A stretch of 64,000 nucleotides of DNA from an uncultured Nitrosomonadaceae bacterium (GTDB lineage: Bacteria; Pseudomonadota; Gammaproteobacteria; Burkholderiales; Nitrosomonadaceae), in assembly GCA_943787405.1 (NCBI GenBank), contig CALSMH010000003.1:62001-126000 (forward strand), in the 5' to 3' direction. The notes under the pieces are model-generated. The model saw only the letters and a list, made by a program, of their open reading frames with translations, was not told the origin of the DNA and ran no database searches. Below are positions 17,849 to 58,095 of this stretch, piece by piece. The translations under genes and the position numbers were made by a program. How positions within the stretch are numbered: position 1 is the stretch's first letter; the number at the start of each line of letters is the position of its first letter.

Positions 17849-18439
17849 TTAGTCGCAGTCTTTATAGTTCTTCTTTAAGCAGTCTCGTGCCATGTCTTCC
17901 GCTTCAGAGATTTGAGTAGGTGTCATTTCTTTAGCTAATGAATCTCGGTTATTACTTCCGTTGTCGTTTCCATTAATCGCAGCTAGGTTGTTCCACATGT
18001 GCGCACGCACATAATCTTGTTTGACACCGTGTCCTAAGTCATACATCAAACCTAGATTAGTTTGCGCTCCAGCTACACCTTTCCTCGCAGCCTTTCGGTA
18101 CCATTTAACCGCTTCCTCATAATCTTGTAAAACTCCTTGTCCCTTTTCATACATCACACCAAGGTTATATTGCGCCTTCCCATATCCTTGCCTCGCAGCC
18201 TTTCGATACCACTTAACCGCTTCTCTAGCATCCTGTTCTACTCCATAACCATTTTGATACATAAAACCCAGGTAATGTTTCGCCTTTGCAACTCCCTCCT
18301 CTGCTAGCGGCTGCCATAATTCAAGAGCAGTCGCATAATCTTTTTTTTCATATGCCTTATATCCATCTTCAAGATCACCCCCTCTAGCAACACTGCTGCA
18401 CAAAACAACCAGCACTAGAATTAATAGTAATTTTTTCAT
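17849..18439 (-). CDS. Exported Sel1-repeat protein, long paralogue
   Basis: A 196-residue periplasmic protein. Signal peptide MKKLLLILVLVVLCSSVARG, then about four Sel1 repeats (AEEGVAKAKHYLGFMYQNGYGV, RQGYGKAQYNLGVMYEKGQGV, RKGVAGAQTNLGLMYDLGHGV) and the same Cys-containing cap as its paralogue (ARDCLKKNYKDCD). It has one more repeat than the 163-residue copy. Its start overlaps by four bases with the stop of the 80-residue membrane protein upstream, so the two are translationally coupled. Confidence 0.9.
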   Translation of the reverse strand: MKKLLLILVLVVLCSSVARGGDLEDGYKAYEKKDYATALELWQPLAEEGVAKAKHYLGFMYQNGYGVEQDAREAVKWYRKAARQGYGKAQYNLGVMYEKGQGVLQDYEEAVKWYRKAARKGVAGAQTNLGLMYDLGHGVKQDYVRAHMWNNLAAINGNDNGSNNRDSLAKEMTPTQISEAEDMARDCLKKNYKDCD

Positions 18440-50820: not shown

Positions 50821-51513
50821 CTAAACAGCAAGTGCTTCTCGGATTCCATCTTTTTCCATGTCTTCACCAGAGCCACGTTTAATAAATTCACCACGTTCCA
50901 TTAATAAATATTGATCAGCAAGAGAATGTGCGAAATCGTAATATTGTTCAACCAATAATATTGCCATATTTCCTTCCTCGGCTAAACTCCGGATAGCACG
51001 TTCAATATCCTTAATAATAGATGGTTGAATGCCTTCAGTAGGTTCATCTAAAATTAAAAGCTGTGGAGAAATTGCTAAAGCACGACCAATAGCAAGCTGC
51101 TGCTGTTGACCACCAGACAGATCACCACCACGACGTTTTAGGAATTCTTTTAATATTGGAAACATTTCATATATACGTGGCGGCAAGGGTGTGCCAGATG
51201 ACTTAGATGCCAATCCCATCTCAAGGTTTTCTAAAACCGTAAGACGAGGGAAAATTTCACGCCCTTGAGGAACATAACCAATCCCATGCCGTACTCTTTG
51301 GTAGGATGGTTCATGTGTCATATCATCACCGTCAAAAATAATCTTACCTGAAGCAGATTTTTCTACACCCATGAGGGTTTTAAGCAAGGTAGTTTTTCCA
51401 GCACCATTTCGGCCGAGTAAACAAGTTACTTCACCTATCTTTAAATCAAAAGATAAGTCACGAAGAATATGACTACCACCATATTTCTGATTAAGGTTTT
51501 CTACCTTTAGCAT
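50821..51513 (-). CDS. urtE: Urea ABC transporter ATP-binding protein UrtE
   Basis: One of two ATPases of the urea importer. The 230 residues carry Walker A GRNGAGKTTLLKTLMG, the Q-loop YVPQGREIFPRLTV, the signature LSGGQQQQLAIGRALA and Walker B LLILDEPTEGIQPSI. The IFPRLTVLENLEMGL segment is typical of LivF-like subunits. It follows urtD by two bases. Confidence 0.95.
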   Translation of the reverse strand: MLKVENLNQKYGGSHILRDLSFDLKIGEVTCLLGRNGAGKTTLLKTLMGVEKSASGKIIFDGDDMTHEPSYQRVRHGIGYVPQGREIFPRLTVLENLEMGLASKSSGTPLPPRIYEMFPILKEFLKRRGGDLSGGQQQQLAIGRALAISPQLLILDEPTEGIQPSIIKDIERAIRSLAEEGNMAILLVEQYYDFAHSLADQYLLMERGEFIKRGSGEDMEKDGIREALAV

Positions 51514-51515
51514 AA

Positions 51516-52322
51516 TTAACGTCCTAAATAAACCTCAATGACTCTTGGATCTGACTGCACCGCAGCCATCTCACCTTCACACAACATAGAACCCTGATCA
51601 AGTACAGTAACCATACTCTTAAGTTGCGCAACAAAATCCATATCATGCTCAACCACAACTAGAGAATGCTTACCTTTTAATGAATTAAATAGCTCACCCG
51701 TGCGTTCAGTTTCATCATCAGTCATACCAGCTACAGGCTCATCTAATAATAATAATTGGGGATCCTGCATTAGCAGCATGCCAATTTCAAGCCACTGTTT
51801 TTGGCCATGAGACAAACGTCCAGCGAGTTGGTCAGCATGAGCGCTAAGATTAACCGTTTTTAATGTTTCAGATATGCGGTCTCGCATAACATCATCAACA
51901 ACAGCAAATAAACTAAAGAAAACCGTTTTATCAGTTTTCATTGCTAATTCTAGATTTTCAAATACGGTGTGGCTTTCAAATATAGTTGGTTTTTGAAATT
52001 TCCGACCGATTCCAACCAGAGCAATTTCTGCTTCAGATAGTTTTGAAAGATCTACAGTATTATTGAAAGTACAGGTACCCTCATCAGGAGTTGTCTTACC
52101 AGTAATACAATCCATCATTGTAGTCTTACCCGCACCATTAGGGCCAATAATACACCGCAATTCATTACGCATAAATTTCATACTAAGGTCATTAAGCGCC
52201 TTGAACCCATCGAATGATACAGAAATATTTGCAATTTCTAAAATTACATCATTTTTATTTGATGCAGGTGCAGAAGCAGAAGCCTCCGCCTTTATCTTGC
52301 TTGTGTCTGTTACATCATTCAT
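51516..52322 (-). CDS. urtD: Urea ABC transporter ATP-binding protein UrtD
   Basis: Second ATPase of the urea importer (LivG-like). The 268 residues have an Ala/Ser-rich N-terminal extension, Walker A GPNGAGKTTMMDCITG, IGRKFQKPTIFESHTVFENL, signature LSHGQKQWLEIGMLL and Walker B LLLLDEPVAGMTDDE; the MTDDE and QKQWLEIG variants are characteristic of UrtD. Its start overlaps the urtC stop by four bases. Confidence 0.95.
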   Translation of the reverse strand: MNDVTDTSKIKAEASASAPASNKNDVILEIANISVSFDGFKALNDLSMKFMRNELRCIIGPNGAGKTTMMDCITGKTTPDEGTCTFNNTVDLSKLSEAEIALVGIGRKFQKPTIFESHTVFENLELAMKTDKTVFFSLFAVVDDVMRDRISETLKTVNLSAHADQLAGRLSHGQKQWLEIGMLLMQDPQLLLLDEPVAGMTDDETERTGELFNSLKGKHSLVVVEHDMDFVAQLKSMVTVLDQGSMLCEGEMAAVQSDPRVIEVYLGR

Positions 52323-53434
52323 CGTGTACTCCGTGCTCGCAGTTGCTGGTATAGACCTACTAATCCTTGTGGCAACAATAGAGTAACCAATACAAACAAT
52401 AATCCGAGGAAGTATAGCCAGTATTCAGGGAATGCTACTGTAAACCAACTCTTAGATAAATTAACTACGAAAGCCCCTATCGCAGGTCCAACAAGAGTAC
52501 CCCGACCACCAATAGCAGCCCATATAGCAATCTCAATTGAATTAGCTGTCGCCATTTCACTAGGATTTATTATACCAACCTGCGGTACATAAAGTGCCCC
52601 AGCAATTCCACATATTATCGCTGCAACCGTCCAAATGAAAAGTTTATACCATAATGGGTTGTAACCAAGAAACATTACTCTCATTTCAGCATCACGAATC
52701 GCAGTTAGTATGCGGCCATATTTGGAGGTTACTACGTAGCGTCCAAATAATAGAGCAAACAATAGTGTCGCTGAGCTTAATGCAAATAATGTAGCCCTCA
52801 TTTCTGGAGAAGTAATATCATATCCAAGGATACGCTTGAAATCTGTAAAACCATTGTTTCCGCCAAAACCAGTATTGTTCATAAAGAACAACAGTAGGAA
52901 AGCATATAACATTGCCTGAGAAATAATAGCAAAGTAAACACCCTTAACACGTGACCGAAAAACAAAGAACCCAAATACAAAAGCTAGTAACCCAGGCGCC
53001 GCTATAGCCAAGAATATTGAATATACGAAACTATCTGTAAATGCCCAGAACCATGGGTACGCTTTCCAATCAAGAAATACCATAAAGTCAGGCAGATGTG
53101 ATTTATACACCCCATCCAGACCAATACTTCTCATTAGGTACATACCGAATGCATATCCGCCAAGTGCAAAAAATAGTCCTTGGGCTAAGGATAGAACACC
53201 CGCATAGCCCCAGATCAAATCCATTGCAACCGCTACAATTGCATAACACATGATCTTGCCAATAAGTGTTACATAAAAAGTAGAGATAAATAAGGCATCA
53301 CCTTCTTGAAACATAAGGTGGCATACTGGTACCGCCACTATGGTCAAAAGAGCAAAAAGAGCTATTGCTATCCAGCCAGTACGGCCGGTAGCAGAGAAAA
53401 ATCTTACAATAAATGGGGTGCGTGCGTTAGACAT
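52319..53434 (-). CDS. urtC: Urea ABC transporter permease UrtC
   Basis: LivM-like inner-membrane permease of 371 residues with about ten hydrophobic helices. Family segments are WGYAGVLSLAQGLFFALGGYAFG, RILTAIRDAEMRVMFLGYNP and GAIGGRGTLVGPAIGAF (here AAIGGRGTLVGPAIGA). It lies between urtB and urtD with short or overlapping junctions. Confidence 0.95.
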   Translation of the reverse strand: MSNARTPFIVRFFSATGRTGWIAIALFALLTIVAVPVCHLMFQEGDALFISTFYVTLIGKIMCYAIVAVAMDLIWGYAGVLSLAQGLFFALGGYAFGMYLMRSIGLDGVYKSHLPDFMVFLDWKAYPWFWAFTDSFVYSIFLAIAAPGLLAFVFGFFVFRSRVKGVYFAIISQAMLYAFLLLFFMNNTGFGGNNGFTDFKRILGYDITSPEMRATLFALSSATLLFALLFGRYVVTSKYGRILTAIRDAEMRVMFLGYNPLWYKLFIWTVAAIICGIAGALYVPQVGIINPSEMATANSIEIAIWAAIGGRGTLVGPAIGAFVVNLSKSWFTVAFPEYWLYFLGLLFVLVTLLLPQGLVGLYQQLRARSTR

Positions 53435-53439
53435 AGTTT

Positions 53440-55101
53440 TTAATCAGCAGTCCTGCCTTTTAAGGCAAATAATCCTTGTGGTCGTTTCTGAATAACGAGG
53501 ATGATGATGGCTAGCACTATCACTTTCGCAAATACCGCGCCTAACCCACCCTCAACTAGTTTTGTAACAATTCCAATACCCATTGATGCCCATACGGTAC
53601 CTGCAAGCTGACCTACGCCACCTAACACTACTGTCATAAAGCAATCAACGATATAACCCTGACCCATTTCCGGACCGACATTAGAAACTTGTGATAGTGC
53701 AACACCACCCAATCCTGCGATAGCTGCACCTAATGCAAATGCTACTGTATCTATTCGGGCGGTAGGAACCCCTACACAACCAGCCATAGTACGATTCTGT
53801 GTTACCGCACGGACAAATAAGCCAAGCCGTGTACGATTGAGCAACAACCAAACCAATACAAGTACTGCTACAGCAAACCCGATAATAATTAATCTATTCC
53901 AAGGAAGATTTACATTACTCATTACTTCCACGCTACCTGATAGCCATGCTGGATTAGCTATTTCTTGATTAAATGTACCAAACATTACTCGAACTGTTTG
54001 AATCAGAATTAACGAAATACCCCATGTAGTTAACAGTGTTTCAAGAGCACGGCCATAAAGCCATCGAATAACTGTGCGTTCCATTATTACACCTACCACA
54101 GCTGCACTAATAAATGCCATCGGTACGGCCGCAACTATATACCAGTCAAAATATTCAGCAAAATTATCACGGAAAAAATCATGCACAACAAAAGTTGCAA
54201 AGGCACCAATCATTAATAGCTCGCCATGAGCCATATTAATAATACCCATAACACCATATGTGATAGCTAGGCCAAGCGCAGCTAATAAAAGAATACTTCC
54301 AAGGCTTAATCCAGTAAAAACACGGGTGACTGTCTCACCTATTAATATTTTTTGCTCCAGTGATGCTAATGATTCTTCTGCAGCTGCACGTACTGAGCTA
54401 TCTGCTTCATTAGCAGGATCAGTCATTTCGGTAAGCTTTAATTTGATATCTGGATTATCACTCTCACCCAGATCTTTTACTGCACTCAGCCTTACTGCTG
54501 GATCAGTGCTCTTGACACCAATCATGGCCTTTACTAATGTTATTATTTCTTTGATCTCAGAGTCACTTTCTTTTGCCAAGACCCGATCCATGATGGGCAA
54601 GAACATTTCATCTGCCCCACCCGTATCTTCAATTTGCTTAGCTGCTTCAAGCCTAATTTCTTGATTCGGATCGAATAATTTCAATATAGACATGCTGGTA
54701 TTTAATACAACACGTACTCGATTATTTGGGTAGACCTGATCCATATCTTCAGGTACAGGAGAAACCTCTTTACCTGAAGTGGCATCAAACGCCTTTTCTC
54801 CTTCCATGCGGATAAGAATCTCTCCGCTGTCACCCGCAATCATCAATCTATCTTCAGCTAGTGCTGTTAGTACTTGTACTGCTTCGGGGGTTGCCAGGAG
54901 AGTTAACTGTTTAATGGCATTTGTTTTTGCCTTGTTGCCATCCCCATTTAATTGATGGACTAACTCCGGATCTAGTGGGAAACCTTCAATAAGCTCTGCA
55001 TTAACTGGCATAGAAAATATTGCCGCCAACCAAGGCAAAAGAATGGCTGTTCTTAAAATTTTTGTAGGTGAAAAAAACCTGAACTGTAATTTACAAAGCA
55101 T
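53440..55101 (-). CDS. urtB: Urea ABC transporter permease UrtB
   Basis: LivH-like permease with the long N-terminal periplasmic domain typical of UrtB. A signal sequence (ILLPWLAAIFSMPVNA) precedes about 230 residues of helical HEAT-like repeats (QLTLLATPEAVQVLTALA; KLFDPNQEIRLEAAKQIED), followed by about nine membrane helices with INMAHGELLMIGAFATF, LLLNRTRLGLFVRAVTQNRTMA and VVLGGVGQLAGTVWASMGIG. I use ATG 55101; TTG 55119 would add six residues. A TATAAT lies only 8 bases before this ATG. Confidence 0.94.
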   Translation of the reverse strand: MLCKLQFRFFSPTKILRTAILLPWLAAIFSMPVNAELIEGFPLDPELVHQLNGDGNKAKTNAIKQLTLLATPEAVQVLTALAEDRLMIAGDSGEILIRMEGEKAFDATSGKEVSPVPEDMDQVYPNNRVRVVLNTSMSILKLFDPNQEIRLEAAKQIEDTGGADEMFLPIMDRVLAKESDSEIKEIITLVKAMIGVKSTDPAVRLSAVKDLGESDNPDIKLKLTEMTDPANEADSSVRAAAEESLASLEQKILIGETVTRVFTGLSLGSILLLAALGLAITYGVMGIINMAHGELLMIGAFATFVVHDFFRDNFAEYFDWYIVAAVPMAFISAAVVGVIMERTVIRWLYGRALETLLTTWGISLILIQTVRVMFGTFNQEIANPAWLSGSVEVMSNVNLPWNRLIIIGFAVAVLVLVWLLLNRTRLGLFVRAVTQNRTMAGCVGVPTARIDTVAFALGAAIAGLGGVALSQVSNVGPEMGQGYIVDCFMTVVLGGVGQLAGTVWASMGIGIVTKLVEGGLGAVFAKVIVLAIIILVIQKRPQGLFALKGRTAD

Positions 55102-55119
55102 GGAATTTATTATACCCAA

Positions 55120-56243: not shown

Positions 56244-57500
56244 TTAAGGCTTTGTTGCGAAATTATCTCGCTTGTCATTGCCTGCAATATGTGGACTCCA
56301 TGGAGCTGCCTTAACAGGACCCTTGGTCTTCCACACTACATTAAACTGGCCGTCAGCACGTACTTCCGCGACAAATACCGGTTTATGCAAGTGATGGTTT
56401 TTTTCATCCATCTTAATTTCAAAACCATTTGGCGCCTTGAAGGTTTGACCGCCTACTGCTGCAATCACCTTATCAACGTCAGTAGTTCCAGCTGCTTCTA
56501 CAGCCTGCTTCCACATATGTATACCAATGTATGTAGCTTCCATAGGATCATTGGTTACAACGCTAGAAGGGTTTGGTAGTTTAGCTTTCTTAGCCCAATC
56601 CTTATACATCTTGATGAAGGCTTTGTTTTCTTTATTTTTGAGCGACTGGAAATAGTTCCATGAAGCTAGATGACCTACGAGAGGTTTGGTATCAACACCA
56701 CGTAGTTCTTCTTCACCAACTGAGAAAGCAACTACTGGTACATCGGTAGCTTTCAGGCCAGCATTACCAAGCTCTTTATAGAAAGGAACGTTTGAATCAC
56801 CATTGATGGTAGAAACTACCGCAGTCTTGCCACCCTGAGAGAATTTCTTAATGTTGGCAACAATAGTTTGATAATCACTATGACCGAATGGAGTGTAAGC
56901 TTCATCGATATCTTTTTCTGCAACACCCTTAGACTTCAAGAAAGCACGAAGGATCTTATTGGTGGTACGAGGATAAACATAATCGGTTCCAAGCAAGACC
57001 CAGCGTTTAGCAGCGCCACCATCTTCACTCATCAGGTACTCTACTGCCGGAATTGCTTGTTGGTTAGGTGCAGCACCGGTATAGAACACGTTATATTCTA
57101 GTTCTTCACCCTCATATTGCACTGGGTAAAATAAAAGGCCATTTAGCTCTTTAAATACTGGTAGAACTGATTTACGTGAAACTGATGTCCAGCAACCAAA
57201 TACCACATCAACCTTATCCTGTCCCAATAGCTGACGGGCTTTTTCCGCAAATAGTGGCCAGTTTGAAGCAGGATCAACTACTACAGCTTCCAACTGTTTC
57301 CCTAATAGGCCGCCGTTAGCATTGATATCGGCGATGGTCATGAGTGCTGTTTCTTTTAATGCAGTTTCAGAAATAGCCATCGTACCTGATAGAGAGTGAA
57401 GAATCCCTACCTTAATGGTATCAGCAGCGTAAGCATTTGCACCCATCACGCTAAGTGATGCTGCAATTGCAAGTGATTTAATAAGATGACGTTGTTTCAT
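56244..57500 (-). CDS. urtA: Urea ABC transporter substrate-binding protein UrtA
   Basis: Periplasmic urea-binding protein of 418 residues. Signal peptide MKQRHLIKSLAIAASLSVMG to AYA, then KVGILHSLSGTMAISE, VFGCWTSVSRKSVLPVF, LLFYPVQYEGEE, PRTTNKILRAFLKSKGV, TINGDSNVPFYKELGNAG and DPMEATYIGIHMWKQAVEAAG, all UrtA signatures. GGGAGGAG about 9 bases upstream supports the ATG. Three tandem repeats lie upstream. No urease genes are in the window. Confidence 0.97.
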   Translation of the reverse strand: MKQRHLIKSLAIAASLSVMGANAYAADTIKVGILHSLSGTMAISETALKETALMTIADINANGGLLGKQLEAVVVDPASNWPLFAEKARQLLGQDKVDVVFGCWTSVSRKSVLPVFKELNGLLFYPVQYEGEELEYNVFYTGAAPNQQAIPAVEYLMSEDGGAAKRWVLLGTDYVYPRTTNKILRAFLKSKGVAEKDIDEAYTPFGHSDYQTIVANIKKFSQGGKTAVVSTINGDSNVPFYKELGNAGLKATDVPVVAFSVGEEELRGVDTKPLVGHLASWNYFQSLKNKENKAFIKMYKDWAKKAKLPNPSSVVTNDPMEATYIGIHMWKQAVEAAGTTDVDKVIAAVGGQTFKAPNGFEIKMDEKNHHLHKPVFVAEVRADGQFNVVWKTKGPVKAAPWSPHIAGNDKRDNFATKP

Positions 57501-57541
57501 AATAATTTACTCCTCCCTAAGAGTTTAAGTAGAACAAAAAT

Positions 57542-57677
57542 ACATGAATCTGTAACAAATTTCTACAACTGTAACTGCAAAAATTAATACATAAACCTGT
57601 AACAAAATTTACAACTGTAACTGCGAAAATTAATACATGAACCTGTAACAAAATTCTACAACTTATTTAGCAATGAA
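57542..57677. repeat. Three tandem 46-47 bp repeats upstream of urtA
   Basis: Copies at 57542-57588, 57589-57634 and 57635-57677. Each begins ACAT(G/A)AA(T/C)CTGTAACAAA; the first two continue through CAACTGTAACTGC to AATTAAT and the third diverges in its last 15 bases. Together they carry five TGTAAC hexamers (57551, 57570, 57598, 57616 and 57643). They lie 42-177 bases before the urtA start codon, where activator sites or promoters would be expected. Confidence 0.85.
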
Positions 57678-57945
57678 TTGGTAAAGGGTTTTTTTTGCTA
57701 TAAAACTTATAATTCAGATACCGCTTCATGGCACCCCTTAAAAACATCACAACCAAAACATACAACAAACAAATCACTCTGTCTATATTTTATTGAACTC
57801 TTACTTCTTTTTAATGTCTATTATTATATTTTTCAATGTAATCTATTGTTTTTTAGGATGTTTATCCTAAATTTAAGTGTGACTTCCTTCCTAACTTTGC
57901 ATTATAGATTCAAATACACACCATAGACTATCTGAAGTATTTATT

Positions 57946-57966
57946 CTGACTACATGTTGTAGTCAG
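57946..57966. other. Hairpin with arms shared with 20140
   Basis: CTGACTAC / GTAGTCAG around ATGTT. The same arms occur in the hairpin at 20140-20162. No T run follows. Confidence 0.45.
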
Positions 57967-58095
57967 AGCGATATTCTTATGGCATTTATAAAGTTATTCT
58001 CCATGTCCTTCGTAAGAAAATATTGTATAACACGAGTTAATTGTTTAATTTAAATGCCTATTAATTTTATATGTTGCAACAACTTGGGAGGCTAC

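Follow-up and report, generated by a model that had tools for sequence, protein, structure and literature searches.

The NtcA consensus is GTA-N8-TAC, with activator sites positioned near −41.5, and in Beta- and Gammaproteobacteria, urtA promoters of the sigma54 type are under NtrC control; NtcA is not known to be used by Proteobacteria. Cyanobacterial urtABCDE is described as NtcA-controlled (PMC6603209), the pil1 locus of Streptococcus gallolyticus as carrying variable GCAGA repeats in its leader region (PMC3894217), and the tlpB gene of Helicobacter pylori as having a G-repeat in its mRNA leader that is the target of the RepG sRNA (PMC8295292).

We analyzed a tandem array upstream of urtA in a 64,000-nucleotide stretch of DNA (hereafter the window; G+C 38.6%) from a 1.45 Mb genome assembled in eight contigs and 97.65% complete (the source genome). 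The locus shares with cyanobacterial urtA a GTA-N8-TAC motif, in one copy, before the same gene, but no NtcA or Crp protein was found, the array lies downstream of the promoter block, and the N8 spacing is not retained in the other copies or in relatives. As in pil1 and tlpB, a repeat in a putative leader differs in copy number between genomes and could grade expression; unlike those repeats, the urtA unit is 46 bp long and not simple sequence, its variation is seen here between species, and no leader peptide, terminator or sRNA is known for the putative urtA leader. Judging from sequence comparison, we lean, with somewhat better than even confidence, towards a triplication, specific to this lineage, of an urtA leader element that is partly conserved; its effect on expression would be mild or nil.

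All five proteins of the urtABCDE operon exceed the cut-offs of the NCBIfam urea-transporter models:

50821..51513, minus strand: urtE, ATPase (TIGR03410, above cut-off)
51516..52322, minus strand: urtD, ATPase (TIGR03411, above cut-off)
52319..53434, minus strand: urtC, permease (TIGR03408, above cut-off)
53440..55119, minus strand: urtB, permease (TIGR03409, above cut-off)
56244..57500, minus strand: urtA, urea-binding protein, 418 aa (PF13433; TIGR03407, 578 bits, above cut-off)

The source genome also has a urease alpha gene and two AMO-family (amoA/pmoA) matches (C1:146317-147027 and C3:372461-373171). Relatives were drawn from a sample of eight genomes of the genus, one per species, of which four have urtA (the source, G002 in two copies, G003 and G007). 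No Amt ammonium transporter was found in any of the eight, while all 14 control genomes were positive. AMO was detected in three of the eight (the source, G001 and G005) and not in G002, G003 or G007, the three relatives with urtA, where its lack may be an assembly gap; amo operons are described as frequently left unbinned in the Great Lakes genome set (PMC9239080). In the same paper the NspGL1 clade, described from Great Lakes genomes, has a median size of 1.42 Mb and a G+C content of 40.7%; urease and urtABCDE are present, an ammonium transporter is apparently lacking, and sigma factors and two-component systems are few. Like NspGL1, a lake ammonia oxidiser, the source genome carries AMO and urease genes while no ammonium transporter was detected in it, and it appears to fall in or near that clade. 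Urea is possibly a main nitrogen and energy source of such lake nitrifiers. Among the best 80 of at least 591 loci, the closest UrtA proteins outside the genus (75–86%) belong to Rhodocyclaceae and other Proteobacteria, while in the remaining genera of the source genome's own family UrtA relatives are at 24–44% or lacking.

Three head-to-tail units of 46–47 bp (copy-to-copy spacing 47 and 46) precede urtA, as the initial annotation of this DNA had reported. The array was placed by TRF at 57539-57663 (period 46, 2.7 copies, 91% matches, score 215), so that it ends 14 bases earlier than the 57677 first given. Near-identical head-to-tail units beyond chance, as in a minisatellite, are thus present, the best TRF score among 20 dinucleotide-shuffled windows being 78. 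In gene orientation, every unit of the source genome begins with AGTTGTAGAnnTTTGTTACAG, with unit 2 one base short:

57617..57663, minus strand: leader unit 1 (promoter-proximal, 47 bp)
57571..57616, minus strand: leader unit 2 (46 bp; contains GTA-N8-TAC)
57525..57570, minus strand: leader unit 3 (urtA-proximal, 46 bp as delimited; final part diverges from units 1 and 2), the best of the three source units against the G002 and G003 leaders

The motifs were also read correctly at the outset: TGTAAC occurs five times (57551, 57570, 57598, 57616 and 57644; intervals 19, 28, 18 and 28), copy 2 has GTA-N8-TAC, and copies 1 and 3 have GTA-N9-TAC. A further GTA-N9-TAC lies on the side of the array nearest urtA. 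Also present throughout the array are a TGTA-N8/9-TACA dyad and direct repeats of GTTACAG at 18–19 bp intervals. Because the copies were made by duplication, however, the hexamers cannot be taken as five independent matches, and hexamers and dyads are to be counted per unit, with at most two hexamers in each. The window contains no excess of GTA-N8-TAC (15 sites versus 11.2 ± 3.6 in 20 shuffles), and a dyad search of the window allowing two mismatches returned two array copies and three other sites, five in all against 8.9 expected. Within 57663-57525 on the minus strand, units 1 and 2 each contain the two-codon reading frame ATG TAT TAA, and unit 3 has an ATG plus five codons and then a stop; by reading, these small frames are not retained in G002 or G003. 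A minus-strand scan reports no promoters within the units, and by eye no box pair in them is retained in the relatives.

The region on either side of the array carries the following elements:

57780..57785, minus strand: −35 box TAGACA of a conserved sigma70-like promoter block, common to the four urtA-bearing genus genomes
57757..57762, minus strand: −10 box TATGTT, spacer 17 bp
57510..57518, minus strand: Shine-Dalgarno AGGGAGGAG, invariant across the four species

In all four urtA-bearing genus genomes, GACAGArTr-N2-TTGTTT-N2-TGTATGTT stands upstream of urtA, a search pattern derived from the same four genomes' sequences in which it was matched; in the window the block is TAGACA-17-TATGTT (57785-57757). 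The promoter consensus by itself is not beyond chance (three sites versus 4.0 expected in shuffles), and the weight given to the promoter therefore comes from conservation. In the first alignment window, 18/20, 14/20 and 14/20 columns are identical to G002, G007 and G003, respectively, and the 14–15 of 20 columns against G007 and G003 are an apparent, modest excess over four-fold sites. The block was found in no viral contig.

If this block is a working promoter, as its conservation suggests, the units would be transcribed: the array lies 94–218 nt downstream of the conserved −10 and hence probably within the transcribed leader. The distance from −10 to the ATG is 256 nt in the source genome, 163 in G002, 188 in G007 and 171 in G003, and the excess over G002 (256 − 163 = 93 = 47 + 46) is exactly two units. 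Under the triplication reading, an ancestral single copy, as in the related species, would have become three tandem copies through slippage or unequal exchange, and the units would belong to the 5′ leader of the urtABCDE mRNA. Since the array follows the −10 and ends near the Shine-Dalgarno, any effect is expected on the message or on early elongation. The unit would thus act at leader level, through transcript stability or through the RNA sequence close to where ribosomes bind, and we infer that having three copies would shift urtA output slightly at most.

The initial annotation had named conservation of the repeats in relatives as a check. One recognisable unit was found in each of G002, G003 and G007 (weakest in G007), aligning at the corresponding place as a single counterpart, versus three in the source genome; TRF detected no array in these three urtA leaders. 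G002 is the closest relative by urtA. Each unit, and the 93-base spacer between promoter and repeats, was scored against the relatives' leaders and against 1000 shuffles of each leader (12 tests, uncorrected). Shuffles scoring at least as high as the real leader numbered, for G002, G003 and G007, respectively, 0, 0 and 152 with unit 3, 1, 1 and 25 with unit 1, 0, 84 and 16 with unit 2, and 0, 676 and 904 with the spacer. These counts indicate that the unit core is shared beyond its neighbouring sequence with G003 and, with less certainty, with G007; in G002 the entire region is similar, spacer included. Identity to the source at urtA four-fold sites is 0.71 for G002, 0.59 for G007 and 0.55 for G003. 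Measured over windows of 20 columns, identity mostly exceeds this level in the promoter block, in the unit core and around the Shine-Dalgarno, whereas in the spacer it falls below it for G007 and G003.

These comparisons bear on the possibility that the array is a neutral minisatellite without effect on expression, its core common by descent only and not through selection. Source and G002 are 72% identical across promoter and leader, about the four-fold-site level, and constraint is not evident from this pair alone; the relatives lack the array, and neither a dyad nor a fold is conserved. Against neutrality, the unit 3 core beats all 1000 shuffles in G003 while the adjoining spacer does not. 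Short intergenic spacers are also reported for the streamlined genomes of such nitrifiers (PMC9239080), which makes an enlarged leader slightly unexpected. We regard neutrality as possible and well worth keeping in view, though not as the favoured account.

In G002, the gene occupying the urtE place is directly followed by another urtA, which has a promoter and leader copy to itself. The two urtA copies (L119:3203-4459 and L119:9812-11068) are identical at 209/209 four-fold sites, and the pair is a recent duplication or an assembly effect.

The initial annotation had pictured the repeats as iterated regulator sites, offering coincidence, a Crp-family protein or an unknown regulator as readings. 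That picture found no support. The array follows the conserved promoter block instead of occupying an activator position. Coincidence does fit the GTA-N8-TAC dyad, and some other regulator acting on the partly conserved core keeps a small probability. Neither GTA-N8-TAC nor GTA-N9-TAC occurs upstream of urtA in any of the three relatives (by reading, G007 has TGTA-N6-TACA), and the dyad is not the conserved feature of the leader. The cNMP-binding domain PF00027 has no match in the source genome at its 97.65% completeness, and the single HTH_Crp_2 (PF13545) match there is sub-cut-off (21.9 bits) and inside a BirA-type biotin protein ligase; G002 has a single HTH_Crp_2 match right at cut-off (27 bits) and no PF00027 match. 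Crp-family proteins are present in G003 and G007, both of which have urtA and lack the dyad. Among 80 other urtA upstream regions, GTA-N8-TAC occurs in four, versus six of the 80 reversed controls. A Crp-family regulator of the array is therefore unlikely, given the missing PF00027 match, the dyad's absence in relatives and the lack of enrichment across the 80 loci.

A site governing urtA in the cyanobacterial manner, under NtcA or a Crp-family protein, would account for the GTA-N8-TAC in copy 2, cyanobacterial urtABCDE being under NtcA (PMC6603209). The palindrome expected of an NtcA promoter is, however, found in only one of three source copies and in none of the three relatives, and the repeats are 94–218 nt downstream of the −10, if the block is the promoter, and not upstream of it. 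With the regulator missing, the dyad lost even where Crp-family proteins occur, and the position wrong, we rejected this reading as extremely improbable.

An NtrC/sigma54 promoter was likewise rejected. The sigma54 DNA-binding domain PF04552 has no match in the source genome, though it is found in G003 and G004, and the −24/−12 element TGGCAC-N5-TTGC, strict or relaxed, is absent on both strands from five genus urtA upstream regions (341–463 bp). The operon is the same as in the loci with sigma54-type urtA promoters (28 of the 80), from which the source genome differs in having no detected sigma54. The triplication reading does not call for a nitrogen regulator, whether NtcA/Crp or NtrC/sigma54, and neither kind was found.

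A DNA-binding regulator outside the Crp family, bound to the repeated units past the promoter so as to repress transcription or block its passage, would fit the GTTACAG repeats and TGTA-N8/9-TACA dyad found throughout the array and the partial conservation of the core. TGTAAC-like half-site pairs at the array spacing are also somewhat more numerous in the source genome than matches to the reversed control pattern (41 versus 26, up to two mismatches). The N8/N9 dyad is nonetheless absent in G002, G003 and G007, and in a search of the eight genomes, a 19-bp core pattern matched nowhere else in the source genome at 0–2 mismatches. Its two exact places are both in this leader, unit 2 being unmatched because of its missing base; with up to three mismatches it has seven places, five of them at three mismatches, no more than the eight of the reversed control. 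Such a regulator is, in our judgement, unlikely. A regulon sharing the core was rejected on the same counts, and when the 320 bp upstream were used as a DNA query, no second leader-like place came up in the source genome (best other E 0.4). In G002 the core pattern has one further site with one mismatch (C34:52972).

Certain amide and nitrate operons are under the control of ANTAR proteins, which act through leader hairpins, and repeats in a putative leader RNA could each be the target of an ANTAR-type or other RNA-binding protein in antitermination. No terminator-like site lies on the minus strand within 57400-58060, though, and no fold is conserved: fold z-scores are −2.06 for the source leader (−1.72 for a longer stretch), −0.68 and −0.74 for the two G002 copies, −0.27 for G007 and +0.71 for G003. 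Neither a fold conserved among the leaders of these four species nor an Rfam family at gathering score upstream of the source urtA points to a structured cis-regulatory RNA, and the lack of a conserved fold leaves a riboswitch-like element without support. At gathering score, Rfam matches in the window are limited to four tRNAs, and the three matches in 57450-58060 are all far below it. The ANTAR profile was found in none of the eight genus genomes, but also in none of 14 control genomes, so that this search carries no weight here. We hold antitermination to be very improbable. On the plus strand, a terminator-like hairpin of 11 pairs (57944-57968) lies between urtA and a DUF4440 ORF, and no ORF of at least 90 aa was seen that it would clearly terminate.

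We also considered whether the copy number of this unclassified leader element could serve as a dial, grading urea uptake in place of a nitrogen regulator, which we think rather doubtful. If true, it would operate in a streamlined ammonia oxidiser seemingly without sigma54, Crp-family regulators or an ammonium transporter, and it is worth asking how such nitrifiers adjust the uptake of urea when the customary nitrogen regulators are missing. We rank mild tuning or no effect highest, an important dial much lower and a Crp-type switch at the bottom. The array marks a short, partly conserved leader element and is, as a repeat, ordinary.

The 80 related loci, the most similar of at least 591, were each represented by 400 bp upstream and the urtA start (less than 400 bp upstream in L038 and L083). 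A sigma54 −24/−12 match occurs in 28/80 and a TACG-N8-CGTA dyad in 22/80, with no overlap, leaving 30/80 with neither; the same 80 sequences reversed gave no match to either. The dyad, often TACGCC-N4-GGCGTA, lies ∼90–200 bp before urtA (L012, L013, L014, L017, L027, L033 and 16 others), and a crude LuxR-type helix signature was seen at four of the 22 dyad loci versus none of the 58 others. The five genus upstream regions have neither the sigma54 site nor this dyad. This suggests at least two mutually exclusive types of control among proteobacterial urt operons, plus another in this genus.

Elsewhere in the window, a 108-bp repeat is present twice at 18078-18286 (TRF score 262), within a minus-strand ORF with Sel1 repeats (17849-18439).
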